NCBI GenBank assembly: GCA_021324465.1
Contig: JAJPJB010000024.1
Location: 45,176-109,175 of the forward strand
DNA: 64,000 nucleotides
From: Hyphomicrobiaceae bacterium
GTDB lineage: Bacteria; Pseudomonadota; Alphaproteobacteria; Rhizobiales; Xanthobacteraceae
Reading direction: 5' to 3'
In this document: positions 33,536 through 52,443 of the stretch, one piece after another
Layout of the letters: each line of letters starts with the position of its first letter
How positions within the stretch are numbered: position 1 is the first letter of the stretch
Program-made: the position numbers and the translations under genes
Notes under the pieces: model-generated
Databases searched by the model: none
Told to the model about the DNA's origin: nothing
Seen by the model: the letters and a program-made list of their open reading frames with translations, nothing else

Positions 33536-34372
33536 TTATATCCTGATCTCGCCGAGATTGATGCTGACCCCAAGATGGGCTTCGACCATTTTCGAACGGC
33601 CGCCGGCGTAAATCTGCACCGTATACGCACCGGAATCCTCGTCGAGCTTGTCGAATTTGAAGTCGCCGTAATTGTCGGTCGTTGTCACCGCGATCGACGC
33701 GCCGTCTTTGACCAGTTGGACGCTCGCACCTTCGACGCAGTCGACGACGCCGTCCTTTTCCTCGGCCACCGAGCCGCCGATGAAGCACTTCGAGTAGCGC
33801 CACAGGTTGCGGTAGTAGACCCGGGGCCTAGTGCCAAGCTCCGGCTTCAGCACTTCAAGCTGTTGCTCGTTCGCGATTCGCGCCATCTCGTCGTCCTCAA
33901 GCTTGATCGCGCGCATCGCTCCGGTCGGACAGGATTGCTGGCCGCGGGTCTGCTGCCAGCCCTGGTCGAGCAAATGGGCGTCGAACGTCCAGGCCTGCGG
34001 CAGCTGCAATTCCTCGTTCCACCAGATATGCCCGTACGGACATGCGTCGACGAGCTGCTTTTGTCCCTTGGCCTTCACCGGGTGGATCAGCACGATGCCG
34101 TCCCGGCGCTTCTTGATGGCGCCTTTCGGCGCCGCCTTGATGCAAGGCGCGTCGTCGCAGTGATTGCACATGGTCGGAACATAGGCGATGTCGATCATCG
34201 GCATCTGCCCGCGCTCCTTCTGCAGGATATTGATCCACTTGTGACCGTGTTTCGGCATCGGCGCCGAATAGCCGGGCCATTCATTGCCGACATATTCGTC
34301 CATGGCGGCGAGCGTGCACAAATTGCAATTTGTGCACTCGGCCACGTCGATGATCAGGTTCCATTTTTTCAT
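33536..34372 (-). CDS. 4Fe-4S electron-transfer (small) subunit of a transhydroxylase/resorcinol-hydroxylase-like Mo enzyme, with a C-terminal transthyretin/Cna-B-like domain
   Basis: ECTNCNLC...[19 protein letters not shown]...ACPYG...SCPTGAM, then [46 protein letters not shown]. Confidence 0.85.
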
Positions 34373-39592: not shown

Positions 39593-40816
39593 ATGCGTGA
39601 AAAACTCGAGCTGCCGCGGCTGTCAATGAAAGAGCGCGATCGCCGCTGGGCCCTGACGCGCAAAGACATGGAAACGCGCGGCCTTGATTGCCTCGTGCTC
39701 TGGGGTTGGCCCGCAGTGTGGGACTTCTGTACTGCGAATGCGCGCTACTTGGCGCCGATCGGCGGCAATGCCGAATTCAACGTGCTGGTGTTTCCGCTGC
39801 ACGGCGAACCGACGTCCTATGTGATGATGCCGACCTTTGTCGACGGCTGGCGCGCAGCACAAGACTGGGTCGCCGATGTGCGGCCGCGGCGGCGGACCTG
39901 GGCCGATTCTGTCGTCGAGCGGATCAACGAGCTCGGGCTGACCAAAGGACGCATCGGCATCGACGGCCTGGCTGGTCCGCTCGATCCGGACGGCTGGCTG
40001 CCGCACAGCGTCTATGTGCGGCTGCAGGAACTCCTGCCGCAAGCCGAATTCATCAATCTCGACGACATGATGGAAATGCTGCGCACCGTCAAAAGCGACG
40101 AGGAGCTGCAAATCCTCGCGCGTGCGGCTCGGCTCGGCGATCTGATGCTGACCAACTGCCGCGATACGGCGCGGCCCGGGGTCAAAGAATCGAAAGTCTA
40201 TGGCAGCATGATGGAGACCATGCTCGCCAATGGCGGCGAAGAGCCGACGTTGTTTCTGTGGGCCTGTGACGCGCTGCCTTATCCGCATCCGTTCCGCATG
40301 CCGACCACGCGCGAAATCGCGCGCGGCGACCTGATCATCTGCGAGATTCATCCCAAGATCGGCGGCTATTACACTCATGTCGAGCGCACTTTCTGCATCG
40401 GCGAGCCAAGGCCGGAGCAGAGGCGCATCTATGAGGGATGCCTCGACGCCTACGACGAAGGCATGAGAAATTTCGGCCCCGGCCGGCCGATTTCAGTCGC
40501 CATGGACAAAGTGCGCGATGTCATTCACGCGCGCGGGCTCGGCATGTGCGAGACCGGTATACACGGCCACGGGCTCGCCTCGCTCGAATATCCGCGCTAT
40601 CGGCATCATGCAATCGCCGCGGATCAGGCCGCACTGAAGAAGCTCGGCGATGCCTTCCGGTCCGGCATGGTGTTCGCGTTCAACATTGATCTGGTCGATC
40701 CGAACTTCTACGACGGCAAGACCGGCTGCGTTTTTGCCGAAACCGTGCTGATCACTGAGACCGGCGCCAAGCGGCTCCACGATTATCCGATGAGTTTCCA
40801 AACAATCGCAGTATGA
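39593..40816 (+). CDS. M24-fold (Xaa-Pro aminopeptidase/creatinase-like) protein with non-canonical metal ligands
   Basis: LVLWGWPAVWDFCTANARYLAPIGG; GDLIICEIHPKIGGYYTHVERTFCIGEP; GIHGHGLASLEYPRY; GCVFAETVLITETGAKRL. Confidence 0.85.
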   Translation: MREKLELPRLSMKERDRRWALTRKDMETRGLDCLVLWGWPAVWDFCTANARYLAPIGGNAEFNVLVFPLHGEPTSYVMMPTFVDGWRAAQDWVADVRPRRRTWADSVVERINELGLTKGRIGIDGLAGPLDPDGWLPHSVYVRLQELLPQAEFINLDDMMEMLRTVKSDEELQILARAARLGDLMLTNCRDTARPGVKESKVYGSMMETMLANGGEEPTLFLWACDALPYPHPFRMPTTREIARGDLIICEIHPKIGGYYTHVERTFCIGEPRPEQRRIYEGCLDAYDEGMRNFGPGRPISVAMDKVRDVIHARGLGMCETGIHGHGLASLEYPRYRHHAIAADQAALKKLGDAFRSGMVFAFNIDLVDPNFYDGKTGCVFAETVLITETGAKRLHDYPMSFQTIAV

Positions 40817-44082: not shown

Positions 44083-45027
44083 TCAATGCGGCACGATATT
44101 CCGCATTTCGTCAGTGCGGCCGGCCAAAAACAGCCGCATGTTGTCAATGATCAGCGGCATGACGAGCTCCTCGTACTCGACGATATAGCCGCCGATATGC
44201 GGCGTTATGAAAACATTGGGCAAGTGCCAGAAAGGGCTCTCCGGCGGCAACGGCTCGGTCTGGAAAACATCCAAGCCGGCTCCGGCAATGCGGCGCTCGC
44301 GCAAAGCTGCAATCAGGGCAGCCTCGTCGACAGTCTGGCCGCGCCCGGCGCTGATGTAATAGGCCGAAGGCTTCATCGCATCGAAGATCGTTGCGTCGAA
44401 CAGACCAATGTTTTCCGGGCTCGCCGGCAATACATTGATCAGATAATCGGCTTTTGCCGCAGCTTTGATGAGGCGATCAGCCGGCATGATCTCGTCAAAT
44501 CCCTCGACCCGTCGCGGCGTGCGGGTGACGCCGATCACGTGCATGCCGAAAGCCTTGAGCAAAACGCCGATTGCCGCCCCGACGATCCCGGTACCGGCGA
44601 CAACCGCGGTCTTGCCGTACAAAGTGCTCCATAGCCGCCGTTGCCAGATCCGGTGCTGATAATCCTCGACCTGGCGCGTGGCGTCGCGACTCACGGCCAT
44701 CATCAAATAGACGACCTGCTCGCGCATCGGCGGCCCGTGAATGCCGCGGCCGCTGGTGATCACCACGTTCGACGTGAGTGAAGGGCAGCGCAGAAAATGG
44801 TCGACGCCGGTCGCCAGCGACTGAATCCACTTCAGCTTCGGCGCGCCGGCCAAAAACGCGTCCCGCACTTCGATGCCGAACATGATCATCACGTCGACAT
44901 CGGAAAGTTCGCCGCTCACCGCGGCCGCCTCGTGGAACAGCAGGAATTGCAGGGCTGGAAATTCCGCCTGCAAGTGGTCGCGATACGTCTCGGCGTGGAT
45001 GTCGACGATGAGAACTTTTGCAGTCAT
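44083..45027 (-). CDS. D-2-hydroxyacid dehydrogenase (NAD-binding)
   Basis: TAVVAGTGIVGAAIGVLLKAFGMHVIGVTRT; GAGLDVFQTEPLPPESPFWHLPNVFITPHIGG. Confidence 0.92.
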   Translation of the reverse strand: MTAKVLIVDIHAETYRDHLQAEFPALQFLLFHEAAAVSGELSDVDVMIMFGIEVRDAFLAGAPKLKWIQSLATGVDHFLRCPSLTSNVVITSGRGIHGPPMREQVVYLMMAVSRDATRQVEDYQHRIWQRRLWSTLYGKTAVVAGTGIVGAAIGVLLKAFGMHVIGVTRTPRRVEGFDEIMPADRLIKAAAKADYLINVLPASPENIGLFDATIFDAMKPSAYYISAGRGQTVDEAALIAALRERRIAGAGLDVFQTEPLPPESPFWHLPNVFITPHIGGYIVEYEELVMPLIIDNMRLFLAGRTDEMRNIVPH

Positions 45028-45056: not shown

Positions 45057-46013
45057 TTACTTCGCCAAGCCAAGATGCCTGACCGCATTGTTATAAGCAA
45101 TGTCCTCGCGCACGCGCGCGGTGAGCGGGACGTGATCGAGAAACCCGCCGGCCTCCTCTGTTGACTCGAACGGATAATCGGCGGCAAACATCACGTGCTC
45201 GTGACCAAGCGCCGAAATCGTGCAATTGAGCGGATCAGCCGAGCACATGCCGGACGTCGTTACCATGATGTTTTGCCTGATATAGGCCGAGGGCTCTTGG
45301 GCGAGCTTGACGCTGTAGAGCTTGGCGCGGCTGTCGAACCGCCAGAGCAGGAATGGCAGTGTTTCACCGAGATGACCGAGCAGGACCTTGACACGCGGAA
45401 AGCGGTCGAACAGCCCGCCGAAGACCAGGCGCAACGCATGCGAACCGGTCTCAAAGCCCCATTCCCAGGTGGCGCGGCGCAGGCCGTTATAGCCTTCGAG
45501 CGCCGGCGACGGCGTAACCGGGTCAGTCGGATGAATGTAGATCGGGGCGCCGAGCGCCTCGGCTCGTTCCCAGAACGGATAGAGTGCCGGATGATCGAGA
45601 TATTGGCCATTGGTATGGCCGTTGATCATGGCGCCGCAAAATTTCAGGTCGCGCATGCAGCGCTCAAGTTCGGCGGCGGCGGCACGCGCGTCCTGCATGG
45701 CAAGATGCGCAAAGCCTGAATAACGATCCGGACGCCTGGCGATCTCGTCCGCGAGGAAATCGTTGGCGGCCTTGGCGTTGCGGATTGCAGTCGTGGTGTC
45801 GCGTTCGATCTGCACACCGGGACCGGCCAGGCCGAGGACGGCGCGCGTAATTCCGGCCTGATCCATCGCGGCCAGGCGCATCTCGCCGAAATCGGTCAGC
45901 GCGGCAAGCAACTTGGCGGCATGCTTGGGATCGACATTGCCGACTGTCGATCGCCAATAGCCCGCAAAGCCGGGTGGCAGAAAATGCTCTTCGAGCGCGA
46001 TCTTTTGCACCAT
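45057..46013 (-). CDS. Amidohydrolase family (ACMSD/gamma-resorcylate decarboxylase-like)
   Basis: MVQKIALEEHFLPPGF; GGLFDRFPRVKVLLGHLGETLPFLLWRFDSRA; HVMFAADYPFES. Confidence 0.9.
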   Translation of the reverse strand: MVQKIALEEHFLPPGFAGYWRSTVGNVDPKHAAKLLAALTDFGEMRLAAMDQAGITRAVLGLAGPGVQIERDTTTAIRNAKAANDFLADEIARRPDRYSGFAHLAMQDARAAAAELERCMRDLKFCGAMINGHTNGQYLDHPALYPFWERAEALGAPIYIHPTDPVTPSPALEGYNGLRRATWEWGFETGSHALRLVFGGLFDRFPRVKVLLGHLGETLPFLLWRFDSRAKLYSVKLAQEPSAYIRQNIMVTTSGMCSADPLNCTISALGHEHVMFAADYPFESTEEAGGFLDHVPLTARVREDIAYNNAVRHLGLAK

Positions 46014-46134
46014 CTCGCCCCGGGGCCTTGCCGCGCCGGTTCTGGTGCCGGCTCCGTCCTCTGTACCGTATGGCGGTGATCCTGTATCAAAGTACGAACC
46101 GGGCAGCAAGATTGAGCAAAGAACGGGGCAACCC

Positions 46135-46938
46135 ATGCAGGCAACCGGCACGCGCGCTTTGAGCGTCAGGAGCAGTGCGAAAGGCAGCGATAAGAGTCAG
46201 GTGCAGGTGATTTCGCGTGCGGCCGCAATCCTGCGCGTTCTTGAGGACGAGGTCGACGGCTTGAGCCTCGGCCAGATCGCACACCGCGTCGGTCTGGCGC
46301 GCTCGACGGTACAGCGCATCGTTGGTGCGCTTGCCGCCGAGAAATTTCTGATTGCGGCCTCCCCGAATGGCCGTGTGCGGCTCGGCCCGACGATCTTGCG
46401 GCTTGCCGCATCAGCGCGCACCGATTTCGTCGCGGCGGCGCGCCCGTTCCTAATGCGGCTGTCGAACGAGCTGAAAGAGACCGCCGATCTCGCCGTAATC
46501 AAGGGTGATCATCTGGTGTTCGTCGATCAGGTGGTGGGCTCACACCGCCTGCGGGCCGTCTCGGCGGTCGGCGAAAGCTTTCCACTCTATTGCACGGCCA
46601 ACGGCAAGGCCTATCTCGCCGAGCTGGACGCTGCCGCAATCGAACGGCTGATCGGCACGACTTACGAGCGTCGCACGCCAAACACGCTGACACGGCTCGA
46701 GGACCTCACCCGAGACCTCAAATCCGTGCGCAAGGCGGGCGTTGCCATTGACCGCGAGGAACACACGCAGGGCATCTGCGCTGCCGGCGTCGTCACCCGC
46801 GATCCGATGGGCAACGTGCTGGCGATCTCGGTGCCGGTCCCGGCGCACCGCTTTTATACGCATCAAAAACACATTGTGGAGCGGCTGCGCGCAACCAAGG
46901 AGTCGCTCGAGCGGCATCTTTTGGCAGCTGCAGCATAG
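46135..46938 (+). CDS. IclR-family transcriptional regulator
   Basis: ILRVLEDEVDGLSLGQIAHRVGLARSTVQRIVGALAAEKFL; AAGVVTRDPMGNVLAISVPVPAHRF. Confidence 0.93.
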   Translation: MQATGTRALSVRSSAKGSDKSQVQVISRAAAILRVLEDEVDGLSLGQIAHRVGLARSTVQRIVGALAAEKFLIAASPNGRVRLGPTILRLAASARTDFVAAARPFLMRLSNELKETADLAVIKGDHLVFVDQVVGSHRLRAVSAVGESFPLYCTANGKAYLAELDAAAIERLIGTTYERRTPNTLTRLEDLTRDLKSVRKAGVAIDREEHTQGICAAGVVTRDPMGNVLAISVPVPAHRFYTHQKHIVERLRATKESLERHLLAAAA

Positions 46939-46968: not shown

Positions 46969-46990
46969 ATTCGATACAAATGTATCGAAT
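46969..46990. promoter_or_regulatory. Perfect 22-bp palindrome, candidate IclR operator
   Basis: ATTCGATACA-AA-TGTATCGAAT, between iclR and the cyclase gene. Confidence 0.75.
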
Positions 46991-47048
46991 TGCAGTACAT
47001 GCCCGCCGACGCGACGGCGGGCGCGCAGGTGACCGGGAGGAGGACGCC

Positions 47049-47894
47049 GTGACCCAAAAAATTCGCGGAGTGACGTTTGAGGAAAACCTCAACAATGCGA
47101 TGGGGCTCGAGTTCTACAATCTGTCGCATCGCTTCGGCTATCAGTCACCCAACTGGCCCTATTTCGAAGACGTCAAGATCGAGCGCATCCATTACATGGC
47201 CAAGTCGGGCGTGCTGTCGCAGCGCATTACGACGTCGATGCACAACACCACCCATATTGATGCGCCCGCCCATGTCGTGCAGGGCACGCCGTTCATCGAC
47301 GAAGTGCCGCTGCCGCACTTCTTCGGCTCCGGCATCGTGGTCTCGATCCCCAAGAAGAAATGGGAATCGATCACCTATGAGGACCTCGAGAAGGCGGCCG
47401 GCAAGTTTGTCCGCCCGCGCGATGTCGTGATCGTCAATACCGGCTGGCACAAGCTTTACGAGGACAGCGAGGATTACTTCTGCTATGCGCCGGGCTTCGT
47501 GCCGTCGGCCGGCCAATGGTTCGTCGAAAAGCAAGTGAAGGTGGTCGGTCACGACACTCAGGCGAACGATCATCCGCTGGCGACCGCAATCGGTCCGCAG
47601 CGCAACGGTCCGCTGCATCCGCACCTTGCCGCCGAGTACAAGGAGTGGTCCGGAGGCCGCGACTGGAAGGACGATTTCCCCGAATGGGAGCCGGTGCACC
47701 GCATTCTGTTCAAGAACGGCATCCTGGGCATCGAGAATGTTGGCGGCGACATCGACAAAGTCACTGGCAAACGCTGCACTTTCGCATTCTTCCCGTGGAA
47801 CTGGGATCGCGGCGACGGCTGCATCATCCGCCTTGTCGCCATTGTCGACCCGAAGGGCACTTATCGCATCGAGAAAGGGGAGGCACTGGCATGA
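47049..47894 (+). CDS. Cyclase-family (kynurenine-formamidase-like) metal-dependent hydrolase
   Basis: TSMHNTTHIDAPAHVVQGTPFIDEVPL (HxxTHxDAPxH); GTG start. Confidence 0.9.
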   Translation: MTQKIRGVTFEENLNNAMGLEFYNLSHRFGYQSPNWPYFEDVKIERIHYMAKSGVLSQRITTSMHNTTHIDAPAHVVQGTPFIDEVPLPHFFGSGIVVSIPKKKWESITYEDLEKAAGKFVRPRDVVIVNTGWHKLYEDSEDYFCYAPGFVPSAGQWFVEKQVKVVGHDTQANDHPLATAIGPQRNGPLHPHLAAEYKEWSGGRDWKDDFPEWEPVHRILFKNGILGIENVGGDIDKVTGKRCTFAFFPWNWDRGDGCIIRLVAIVDPKGTYRIEKGEALA

Positions 47895-48229
47895 TCGTGC
47901 GCAAGTTTTCCGACGCCAAGCCGTACGAAGCGCCGAACCATCGTGACTACAAGTCCTTTCGCGTATTCGGCGCCGAGATGGGCGGGTCGCAGACACTTGT
48001 CTTCGGCATTTCGCATTTTCTGCCGGGCGGCGGTGCCGGTCCGGACGCGTCCCCGCCGGAAAAGATTTACTACGTGCTCGCCGGGGAGTTGACCGTGATC
48101 GCCGGCGGCAAGGAGGCGGTCATCAAAGCAGGCGACAGCTGCTACATCGGTCCGAACGAAAGCCGCGAGATCGTCAATCGCGGCCACGATGTTTGCACCA
48201 TCGCGGTGGCTGTCGCGCCGGTGCGGTGA
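47891..48229 (+). CDS. Cupin-domain protein
   Basis: KIYYVLAGELTVIAGGKEAVIKAGDSCYIGPNESREIVNRG; ATGA overlap with the cyclase. Confidence 0.88.
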   Translation: MIVRKFSDAKPYEAPNHRDYKSFRVFGAEMGGSQTLVFGISHFLPGGGAGPDASPPEKIYYVLAGELTVIAGGKEAVIKAGDSCYIGPNESREIVNRGHDVCTIAVAVAPVR

Positions 48230-48351: not shown

Positions 48352-49155
48352 ATGGCGGAAGACTTTTTGAAAAACCCACTCTCTCTCTTCGATGTCCGCG
48401 GCAGGACCGCCGTCATCACCGGAGCGACTGGCGCCTTCGGCGCGATCGCGGCAAAGACGCTGGCTGCGGCGGGTGCGGGCGTCGTGATTGCCGCCAACAA
48501 CGCGGAGGGGCTCAAAAAGCTCGCCGCGCAATGCGCCGGGCTCGGCGGCAGGGCCGAAGTCATCGCCAAGCGTCCGAGCTCGGAAGCAAATTGCGACGCC
48601 ATTGTCGCAACCGCGGTCGAAAAATTTGGCGGCCTCGACATACTGGTCGTGGCTTCGGGTCAGAACAAAGTTTCGAAGATCGTCGAGCAGAAGCCTGAAG
48701 ACTTTCTCGATGTGATGGATGCCAATGTCACGCAGTCCTGGCTGATGGCGCGCGCCGCGGCGCGACAGATGATGAAACAGGGTCGCGGCGGCAAGATCAT
48801 TCTGATGTCCTCGGCGCGCGGCCTGCTTGGGCATCCGGCGGGTTATACGGCCTATTGCGCGTCGAAATCGGCCGTGGACGGCATCACCAAGGCGCTCGGC
48901 TGCGAGCTCGGCGCAACCGGGATCACCGTCAACGCGCTCGGACCGACGGTTTTCCGCTCGCCGCTCACCGAATGGATGTTTGCCGACGACGAGCGCGGCA
49001 AAGCGGTGCGCGCCGGCTTTCTCACGCGCGTGCCCAAGGGCCGCCTCGGCGAGCCCGAGGATCTCGCCGGCCCGCTCTTGTTCCTCGCCTCCAAGGCCTC
49101 GGATTTCTATACCGGCCATATCCTGTATGCCGACGGCGGCTATACGGCGGGCTGA
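48352..49155 (+). CDS. SDR-family oxidoreductase
   Basis: TAVITGATGAFGAIAAKTLAAAGAG; YTAYCASKSAVDGITKALGCEL. Confidence 0.95.
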   Translation: MAEDFLKNPLSLFDVRGRTAVITGATGAFGAIAAKTLAAAGAGVVIAANNAEGLKKLAAQCAGLGGRAEVIAKRPSSEANCDAIVATAVEKFGGLDILVVASGQNKVSKIVEQKPEDFLDVMDANVTQSWLMARAAARQMMKQGRGGKIILMSSARGLLGHPAGYTAYCASKSAVDGITKALGCELGATGITVNALGPTVFRSPLTEWMFADDERGKAVRAGFLTRVPKGRLGEPEDLAGPLLFLASKASDFYTGHILYADGGYTAG

Positions 49156-49157
49156 AC

Positions 49158-50072
49158 ATGGCGCATGAGGTGACCAACGCGCGCATTGCAGTCATCGGTG
49201 CCGGATTGATGGGTCACGGCATCGCGCAGGTTTTTGCGCTTGCCGGCCTCGACGTTACCATCACTGATACCGTTGCCAAGAGCCTCGACACAGTGAAGGC
49301 ACGGATATCCGCCAATCTGCGCGACTTGGGTGACGATGCGGCGGCGGTGGAACGTGTTTCGCCCCGCGCCGAACTCGCCGACGCGGTGCGCGATGCCGAT
49401 TATGTGGTCGAGGCGGTGTCCGAGGATCTGCCGCTTAAGCAAAAATTGTTTGCCGAGATCGAGCGTCACGTACGTCCCGACACGATCCTCGCCAGCAACA
49501 CGTCGGTCATTCCGATCACGGCAATCATGCAAGGCCTCCACAGGCGCGAGCGCGCGCTTGGCACGCATTGGTGGAATCCGCCGTTCCTGGTGCCGCTGGT
49601 CGAAGTGATCGAGACGCAATGGACGTCGCCCGAGGTGATCGCCTGGACCATGCAATTGCATCGCGCCGCAGGCAAGAAGCCGGCGCATGTCAAAAAGGAC
49701 GTGCCGGGCTTCATCGGCAATCGGCTGCAGCACGCGCTGTGGCGTGAAGCAATTTCCCTGGTCGAGAATGACATCTGTGATGCGCAAACCGTCGACGACG
49801 TGATCAAGGCCTTGTCCGGTCGCCGCATTGCGGTGCTCGGTCCGCTCGAGAACGCCGATCTGGTCGGTACCGATCTTACGCTCGCCATTCATGAGACGGT
49901 TCTGCCGGCGATCGACAGCCGGCCCGGACCCTCACCCTATCTGAAAAAGCTTGTGGCCGATGGCAAGCTCGGTTTCAAATCAGGCGAGGGATTTCGCAAA
50001 TGGAGCGCCGAGGAACAGGCGGCGCTGCGCGCCAAGGTCGTAGCGCATCTCAAAGCATTACGCGATCGCTGA
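49158..50072 (+). CDS. 3-hydroxyacyl-CoA dehydrogenase family protein
   Basis: IAVIGAGLMGHGIAQVFALAGLDVTITD; LASNTSVIPITAI; GTHWWNPPFLVPLVEVI. Confidence 0.93.
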   Translation: MAHEVTNARIAVIGAGLMGHGIAQVFALAGLDVTITDTVAKSLDTVKARISANLRDLGDDAAAVERVSPRAELADAVRDADYVVEAVSEDLPLKQKLFAEIERHVRPDTILASNTSVIPITAIMQGLHRRERALGTHWWNPPFLVPLVEVIETQWTSPEVIAWTMQLHRAAGKKPAHVKKDVPGFIGNRLQHALWREAISLVENDICDAQTVDDVIKALSGRRIAVLGPLENADLVGTDLTLAIHETVLPAIDSRPGPSPYLKKLVADGKLGFKSGEGFRKWSAEEQAALRAKVVAHLKALRDR

Positions 50073-50084
50073 TGGGAGGATTCC

Positions 50085-51362
50085 ATGATCGACAAAGGCA
50101 AGCTCAATCGTCGCGCTATTGTCGCCGGCGGCCTTGGGGCGTTGGTGGCGCCCGCAATGCTGCGGATCATTCCGGCTAACGCGCAATCCAAAACCATCAA
50201 GATCGGACATGTCAGTCCGAAGACCGGGCCACTGGCCGGCTTCGGTGAATCCGATGCTTTTATCCTCGATCAAGTGAAAGGCGTGCTTGCCAAAGGCCTG
50301 CGGACGAGCAGTGGCAAGAGCTATCCGGTCGAGATCATTTCAAAAGATAGCCAGTCGACCAGCACGCGCGCTTCCGAGGTCGCCTCCGAACTCATTGTGC
50401 ACGATAGAGTCGATCTCATTGTCGCCTCGGCGGCGCCTGACACGACCAATCCGGTCGCCGATCAGGCCGAAGTCAACGAGGTGCCCTGCGTGACGACCAA
50501 TTGCCCGTGGCAGCCTTATTTCTTCGGTCGCAACGGTGATCCGAAAAAGGGCTTCACCTGGACCTACCACTTCTTCTGGGGCCTCGAAGACGTCATCGCG
50601 TCGTATCTGCCGATGTGGGATTCGGCACCGACCAACAAGATCATGGGCGGACTGTTTCCGAACGACGCCGACGGCAATGCCTGGGGGGATCCGCAGCGGG
50701 GCCTGCCGCCCGCGCTGATCAAGGCCGGCTACAAGCTCGTCGATCCCGGCCGCTATCAGGTGATGAACAACGATTTCACCTCGCAGATCACGCAGTTCAA
50801 ACAGGCGGGCGCGGAGATCGTGGTCGGCAACATGATCCCGCCGGATTTCGCGACATTCTGGTCGCAAGCAGCGCAGCAGGGCTTTCATCCCAAGGTCGTC
50901 ACCATCGGCAAGGCGCTGCTGTTTCCATCTGTGGTCAATTCGCTCGGACCCCGCGGCAACGGGCTGAGCACGGAAATCTGGTGGACGCCGACGTTCCCGT
51001 TCAAGTCCGGGCTGACCGGGCAGAGCGCGCGCCAGCTGACCGATGCCTATATCGACGCGACGAAGCGGCCATGGACGCAGCCGATCGGCTATCAGCACGC
51101 GTTGTTCGAGGTTGCGCTCGATGTGCTAAAGCGCGCCAAGAGTATCGAGCCGAAGGCGATTCTCGATGCGGTCGTTGCCACCGACTATCAGTCGATCGTC
51201 GGCCCGGTGAAGTGGACCGGTCAGCCCGTCAAGAACGTGACCAAGACACCGCTCGTGGCCGGTCAATGGCAGCGCTCAGGCAACGGCTTTGATCTGGTGA
51301 TCACCGAGAACAAATCGGCGCCCGAAATCCCGGTCGGCGGCAAGTTACAGCTACTATCGTAA
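50085..51362 (+). CDS. ABC transporter substrate-binding protein (LivJ/Peripla_BP_6-like)
   Basis: Tat-like N-terminus LNRRAIVAGG; IKIGHVSPKTGPLAGFGESD. Confidence 0.9.
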   Translation: MIDKGKLNRRAIVAGGLGALVAPAMLRIIPANAQSKTIKIGHVSPKTGPLAGFGESDAFILDQVKGVLAKGLRTSSGKSYPVEIISKDSQSTSTRASEVASELIVHDRVDLIVASAAPDTTNPVADQAEVNEVPCVTTNCPWQPYFFGRNGDPKKGFTWTYHFFWGLEDVIASYLPMWDSAPTNKIMGGLFPNDADGNAWGDPQRGLPPALIKAGYKLVDPGRYQVMNNDFTSQITQFKQAGAEIVVGNMIPPDFATFWSQAAQQGFHPKVVTIGKALLFPSVVNSLGPRGNGLSTEIWWTPTFPFKSGLTGQSARQLTDAYIDATKRPWTQPIGYQHALFEVALDVLKRAKSIEPKAILDAVVATDYQSIVGPVKWTGQPVKNVTKTPLVAGQWQRSGNGFDLVITENKSAPEIPVGGKLQLLS

Positions 51363-51378: not shown

Positions 51379-52443
51379 TCACCGTCCGCGGGATTGCGAT
51401 CCCAGGCTGTCCCACCAGGGACAGACTCCGGACATAACTTCGTAGTTGCCTTCCATCACCTGGACTGGACGGCGAAAGCCATTCTCGGCATTCTTTAGCC
51501 GCAGCGCGCGTGCCTTGGCCCGATCTTCGGGCGAGAGCCAGGACCGGTCATGGCCCCACATGCTCGGGCCTTCCTTGCGCTCGAGGGCTTGCCAATGGTC
51601 GACATCGATCGAACGCGCGCCCCAGCCATATTCCACCATGAAGGCCGAGGGCGTCCAGGTATAGAACGAAGTGATGAAATCGCTGGTATGGCGGCCAAGC
51701 GTCACGGCAACGCGGCCTGCTTCGCCGAGCGCCAGATCGTAGCCCTGCCCGACGTCGTCGAAACTGAACAGCTCCATCATCAAGTGATGAACCGCATTCT
51801 TGCCGGTCTGGATGAAGGCAAGACTGTGATGGCGCGGATTGACATGGAGGAAGCGCGCCACAAAAGGATGCGAGTAATAGTCGGTCAGTCGAAAACCGAG
51901 CGTATCGCGGTAAAATGCCATGAGACGATCGATGGTCTGCGCCGTATCGACATTGAGCACGACATGGCCAAGGCCGAGCGGGCCGGTGCGAAAGCCCGAA
52001 ATAGAGCGGCCGGGCTTGAACGGATCGCTCGATATCTGGGCGCCGTAAAAAATCTCGAGCCGGTTGGCCACCGGATCGTCGAACACGATCAGATCCTTGA
52101 CATGGCGTTGGTCGGCCAGCGCCCGCGATCCGCGCTCGATCCTGATGTCGTTGTGCTCAAGATGCGCGGCGAAGGCGTCGAGTGTCGCGGCGTCGGCGAC
52201 TTCCCAGCCGAAAAAGCCGATGCCCTGCCCGCCATCGGCGTCGACGACCAGCCGCTGCTTGCGGTCGTCCATGCGAAAAGCCAGCGTCGTGCGCGACTTG
52301 TCGATGCGCTGCAGCCCGAGCAAGTTCGTGCCATAGCTCGCCCAATCGCTCAAATCCTTGGTGCGAATACCGACATAGCCCAGAGCTTGAAGCACGGGCC
52401 GCTGTGGCGCGAAATGTTGTAGATCGGTGCTGCTCATGGACAA
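51379..52443 (-). CDS. VOC-family ring-cleavage (extradiol, BphC-like) dioxygenase
   Basis: LGYVGIRTKDLSDWASYGTNLLGLQ; LGLGHVVLNVDTAQTIDRLMAFYRDTLGFRLTDYY; NPRHHSLAFIQTGKNAVHHLMMEL. Confidence 0.9.
   Translation of the reverse strand: MSMSSTDLQHFAPQRPVLQALGYVGIRTKDLSDWASYGTNLLGLQRIDKSRTTLAFRMDDRKQRLVVDADGGQGIGFFGWEVADAATLDAFAAHLEHNDIRIERGSRALADQRHVKDLIVFDDPVANRLEIFYGAQISSDPFKPGRSISGFRTGPLGLGHVVLNVDTAQTIDRLMAFYRDTLGFRLTDYYSHPFVARFLHVNPRHHSLAFIQTGKNAVHHLMMELFSFDDVGQGYDLALGEAGRVAVTLGRHTSDFITSFYTWTPSAFMVEYGWGARSIDVDHWQALERKEGPSMWGHDRSWLSPEDRAKARALRLKNAENGFRRPVQVMEGNYEVMSGVCPWWDSLGSQSRGR

Follow-up and report, generated by a model that had tools for sequence, protein, structure and literature searches.

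The regulatory sites of the IclR family have been described in detail by Suvorova and Gelfand (2021, PMC8222616), who distinguished two site types built from the same boxes in different arrangements, with the layout GKTYCRY-W3-4-RYGRAMC in group 1 and TGRAACA-N1-2-TGTTYCA in group 2, the sites lying about two helical turns apart on one face. For 32 orthologous groups the same work predicted three-box sites, in which the boxes alternate in direction. Experimental precedents are provided by PcaU, PobR and HmgR, whose sites consist of a palindrome plus an external half-site (PMC8222616), and the third box was required for binding by PcaU (Popp et al. 2002, cited there).

Here, we analysed a stretch of 64,000 nucleotides (the window) carrying a perfect palindrome between an iclR gene and an uncharacterised catabolic cluster. 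Our analysis indicated that the palindrome is, with high probability, the core of a predicted operator (operator B) for the protein encoded by the neighbouring iclR, which would also act at a mirrored operator A and probably at a third site, most likely by repression.

Results

The palindrome at 46969-46990 spans 22 bp and consists of two perfect 10-bp arms, ATTCGATACA-AA-TGTATCGAAT, located in the 110-bp gap that separates the iclR stop codon (46938) from the GTG start codon (47049) of a cyclase-family hydrolase gene, exactly as claimed in the initial annotation. The GTG codon is preceded by GGGAGGAGG; the longest mechanically called cyclase ORF starts at an ATG within the palindrome (46980), and homology to the relatives begins only at 47049. 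A scan of the genome for the sequence, which had been proposed together with the palindrome, was run on the whole 4.57-Mb genome (G000) and returned no second match at fewer than three mismatches. The annotation had also regarded the perfect repeat as a strong regulator-site candidate; the regulator site is backed by the comparisons reported below, but the palindrome alone is unremarkable, since a first-order Markov simulation with the dinucleotide make-up of the window produced perfect 10+10 palindromes, at spacers of up to 4, about once per 64 kb. The bare palindrome was therefore rejected as evidence of function, and its significance had to be drawn from comparison: what goes beyond chance is its place in the intergenic gap together with its conservation. 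A second perfect palindrome of the window, GTGCACAAATTGCAATTTGTGCAC, is found at 34314-34337 within the start of a ferredoxin-type subunit gene (minus strand, 33536-34372).

The element in front of the cyclase gene proved longer than the reported palindrome. It comprises 28 bp at 46972-46999 (plus strand), CGATACA-2-TGTATCG-5-CAGTACA, with the three boxes at 46972-46978, 46981-46987 and 46993-46999, so that the palindrome corresponds to boxes 1 and 2 plus flanking bases and accounts for two of the three boxes in a conserved putative IclR operator. The three TGTAYCR boxes point in alternating directions: a 2-bp spacer separates the halves of the palindrome formed by boxes 1 and 2, and a 5-bp spacer those of the palindrome formed by boxes 2 and 3. 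Box 1 and box 3, at a distance of 21 bp, share one face of the helix. The spacings of 2 and 5 bp between the 7-bp boxes were kept in the relatives, as in the counterparts CGATACA-2-TGTACCA-5-CGGTACA (locus L052) and TGGTACA-2-TGTATCG-5-CAATACA (L024), both taken from iclR-cyclase gaps of relatives. Operator B is followed, ahead of the ribosome-binding site of the cyclase gene, by a G+C-rich hairpin, GCCCGCCGACGCGACGGCGGGC, at 47001-47022, with no T-run after it.

A mirrored counterpart, TGTACCG-5-CGGTGAT-2-TGTATCA, was found at 46062-46089 (minus strand) in the divergent gap between the amidohydrolase gene and iclR, with boxes at 46062-46068, 46074-46080 and 46083-46089. The weaker related string noticed earlier at about 46084 is thus real (TGTATCA, 46083-46089), but it is the outer box of this full mirrored operator rather than a stray match. 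Across the 34 orthologous amidohydrolase/iclR gaps, that of the window included, the outer TGTAYCR boxes had their best spacing at 21 or 22 bp in 29, and the middle box was degenerate, as is CGGTGAT here. Because operator A mirrors operator B, both are oriented alike towards the catabolic genes.

When the whole genome was searched with the three-box pattern at up to three mismatches, the best two matches were operator B (0 mismatches) and operator A (2 mismatches), both flanking iclR; the remaining matches were an unrelated one at 3 mismatches and one overlapping operator B. The reversed control pattern gave 11 and 9 matches in the same search, placing the 3-mismatch matches at the level of chance. 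Operators B and A again ranked top in a profile search of the genome. A matrix built from other genomes only, with no sequence of the window, scored operator B at 30.4 bits and operator A at 20.9 bits, compared with maxima that averaged 10.8 bits and reached at most 19.3 bits in 60 simulated 64-kb sequences. A match of 16.1 bits at 39707, inside an M24 peptidase gene, was set aside as likely chance, because 14.2 bits was reached by 15% of the simulated sequences.

Conservation was assessed in the 350-bp upstream regions of 80 cyclase orthologues taken from the GTDB collection, with a threshold of 17 of the 21 box positions, a score reached by 0.06% of dinucleotide shuffles; the genomes are related, so that the locus counts are not independent. 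The site was present upstream of all 12 cyclases with a divergent iclR, 5 of the 10 with a tandem iclR at a gap of more than 100 bp, 6 of the 30 without an adjacent iclR, and 0 of the 28 with iclR directly upstream in tandem at a short gap. This last result would be understandable if iclR and the cyclase gene formed one transcript under operator A. The boxes were far more conserved than their flanks (71% versus 35% for operator B and 88% versus 33% for operator A), indicating that shared ancestry of the region alone is an insufficient explanation. At one locus (L006:2250-2741, G013) the operator is intact and the cyclase is cut to a short 5′ remnant fused to the end of the cupin gene, which could reflect misassembly or a true deletion of sequence behind the operator.

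Co-occurrence with the regulator was addressed at the 24 loci without an adjacent iclR, by seeking an orthologue anywhere in their genomes, whose completeness is not given, at E≤1e-30. All 6 loci with a forward-orientation site encoded an IclR orthologue elsewhere in the genome (61-68% identity); five of them (L081, L107, L109, L111 and L112) scored 18/21, and the sixth, L105 (Rhodoplanes elegans DSM 11907), which scores 16/21 and has TTGACC in the customary position, was recognised only after the fact, on closer reading. The other 18 loci had neither a forward site nor an IclR orthologue at this threshold. Matches in the reverse orientation occurred without an orthologous IclR at L055 (17), L045 and L059 (16). 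At L103, which also lacks this IclR, the sequence CGATACA...CGGGTCA has lost the middle box and looks like an operator relic. The relocated iclR genes bear an A-type site of their own, for example TGGTACA...CGGTACA, and the recognition helix RSTVQRIV is near-invariant among the operator-sharing orthologues; the more remote L032-L034 have a different helix. Cross-genome comparison thus showed a predicted site with conserved geometry that co-occurs with this IclR, and thereby supported the original reading, in which the cyclase operon is preceded by a predicted site of the neighbouring IclR.

Two further elements were observed in this set. A 32-bp perfect palindrome, TCATCAATCGATACATATGTATCGATTGATGA, with the same CGATACA/TGTATCG core, lies at L034:1350-1381 and precedes the gene of a less closely related IclR (38% identity). 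At L036-L039, L041, L045, L048 and L054, all without this IclR, another conserved, partly symmetric element, resembling GGTCTATATCCGATATCCGGTGCAATGGTATATGGCCCAATGCTATAAG, precedes the cyclase by about 100 bp, which suggests that the operon has come under a different regulator.

The profile search and a two-box pattern also identified a near-perfect two-box site, TGTACCGTATTGCGATACA, at 8981-8999 of contig C38 of G000 (= L128:8981-8999). It directly precedes a Vgb-lyase-family gene followed by genes for a dienelactone hydrolase and a TctC-type receptor. In genome G095, an orthologue of the Vgb-lyase gene and a gene for a TctC-type receptor are located between iclR and the cyclase gene, with a strong site (19/21) in front of them. 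Sites scoring 12-14 of a possible 14 preceded the Vgb-lyase gene in 4 of 8 IclR-bearing genomes, four lacking them, and in 0 of 10 genomes without the IclR, where the best score was 10. This independent linkage of the Vgb-lyase gene to the IclR supports a regulon reaching beyond the window, and the C38 site is probably a third predicted target of the same IclR.

The presumed regulator, iclR (46135-46938, plus strand), matched HTH_IclR (41.9 bits) and IclR_C (155.5 bits), both above the Pfam cut-offs. Its assignment to PcaR/PcaU/PobR (TIGR02431, 119.9 versus a cut-off of 284.75) or to BhcR (NF045644, 138.3 versus 350) was rejected. Behind operator B, the plus strand encodes the cyclase-family hydrolase (47049-47894, PF04199) and, by domain matches, a cupin (47894-48229), a short-chain dehydrogenase (48352-49155), a 3-hydroxyacyl-CoA-dehydrogenase-family protein (49152-50072) and a LivJ-type periplasmic binding protein (50085-51362). 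Beyond operator A, the minus strand encodes first an amidohydrolase (45057-46013) and then a protein of the D-2-hydroxyacid dehydrogenase family (44083-45027, domain match). The amidohydrolase is closest to gamma-resorcylate decarboxylases (5.5e-65), and decarboxylase activity on 2,6-dihydroxybenzoate is putative. Distant PDB relatives of the cyclase are kynurenine formamidase and isatin hydrolase; arylformamidase (TIGR03035) was rejected for it at 43.1 versus a cut-off of 223.05, as was naming a pathway from the cyclase or the cupin, the PDB relatives being weak. No characterised cluster matching this gene set was found in the literature. Convergent with the cyclase operon lies an extradiol-dioxygenase-type gene (51382-52443, minus strand), whose best NCBIfam relative, biphenyl-2,3-diol 1,2-dioxygenase, scored below its cut-off; its presence is a hint of aromatic catabolism in the vicinity. 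Genes of lactonase-like and dienelactone-hydrolase-like type join the candidate pathway through the probable third target, and as a guess the substrate of the pathway is perhaps a hydroxylated aromatic or lactone-type acid.

Discussion

In the mechanism that we infer, IclR bound to boxes 1 and 2 would cover the promoter in the absence of inducer and block RNA polymerase, and a metabolite of the pathway would release it from the operator; at the mirrored operator A, IclR would control the amidohydrolase and 2-hydroxyacid-dehydrogenase genes as well as its own gene. In 16 of 25 relatives, a −35 element with five or more of the six TTGACA bases was placed 4-6 bp (mostly 6 bp) before box 1, which at 17-bp spacing makes the −10 element fall mostly in box 2, and many relatives have a good TTGACY −35 at a fixed spacing from the boxes. 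This overlap of boxes and promoter in most relatives favours repression. Within the window itself promoter prediction gave no hit and the −35 before box 1 matches in only 3 of 6 positions, so that repression there is argued from the relatives. If the site is indeed real, the most probable mode, held with fair confidence, is repression relieved by a metabolite. A more speculative, rather doubtful extension is that the two overlapping palindromes (boxes 1-2 and 2-3) represent alternative dimer registers sharing box 2, the inducer shifting the occupied pair and thereby switching the promoter of an undescribed pathway.

The same IclR might instead use the same site to activate the catabolic genes in an inducer-dependent manner, perhaps repressing its own gene. 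This would agree with the family activators PcaU and PobR, which have three-box sites (cited in PMC8222616), with the common orientation of operators A and B towards the catabolic genes, and with the weak promoter of the window, a common property of activated promoters. However, the boxes of most relatives lie between and over the −35 and −10 elements, many with the good TTGACY −35, and we regard activation as unlikely, although it merits the most weight of the explanations set against IclR repression.

Much less probable is that the palindrome belongs to another regulator and the neighbouring iclR is incidental. The genome does hold further IclR-like candidates, and the pairing of IclR with the site is a prediction here; yet the site tracks this IclR even after relocation of the gene, both best genomic sites flank iclR, and the geometry is that of described IclR-family sites. 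We also considered an RNA hairpin, acting either as the iclR terminator or as an element of the cyclase mRNA leader. Folding of the leader is favourable (z = −3.4), and the structure has two stems, the palindrome and the G+C-rich sequence at 47001-47022. Against this, no pair of boxes 1-2 showed a compensatory change and 27% of the cells were unpaired, no terminator was predicted at the palindrome, no Rfam match was obtained, and operator A carries the same boxes in a non-hairpin arrangement, leaving the hairpin very improbable. A functionless chance palindrome, for which the expectation of about one per window would speak, is contradicted by conservation, position and co-occurrence and can practically be discounted.

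The analysis provides this catabolic cluster, which occurs in many Xanthobacteraceae and related families, with a precise predicted operator supported by comparison and with a small predicted regulon of two or three sites. Since individual boxes are naturally present in some related genomes and absent from others, and iclR has been relocated in some, the system lends itself to a test of the proposed dual mode of dimerisation in some IclR proteins.

In terms of the IclR family, the palindrome of operator B alone is a group 2 box pair. As in the three-box sites of PMC8222616, the boxes of the complete operator alternate, one pair having the group 2 and the other the group 1 layout; unlike the published box TGTTYCR, the boxes here read TGTAYCR, with A for T at one position each. 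The same geometry with one base changed per box places the element with the three-box IclR sites, a known kind of site, and this orthologous group may be new or already among those listed. The operators of PcaU, PobR and HmgR likewise combine a palindrome with an additional external box, with a box sequence different from the present one. PcaU and PobR are activators, whereas repression is more likely here, and TtgV controls an efflux pump, whereas the neighbours of the present IclR are catabolic genes. By sequence, TtgV is the closest solved IclR-family structure (PDB 2xrn and 2xro, 4e-39), and its recognition helix RSTVQRII is nearly the same as RSTVQRIV. TsdR of Rhodococcus, which serves gamma-resorcylate utilisation, is likewise an IclR-family protein beside a gamma-resorcylate-decarboxylase-like amidohydrolase; its published motif GTGTGRYTSSMRTCAYAC (PMC8222616, Table 1) differs from the present boxes, and the cyclase, cupin, short-chain dehydrogenase and 3-hydroxyacyl-CoA-dehydrogenase-family genes suggest a pathway other than that of TsdR.
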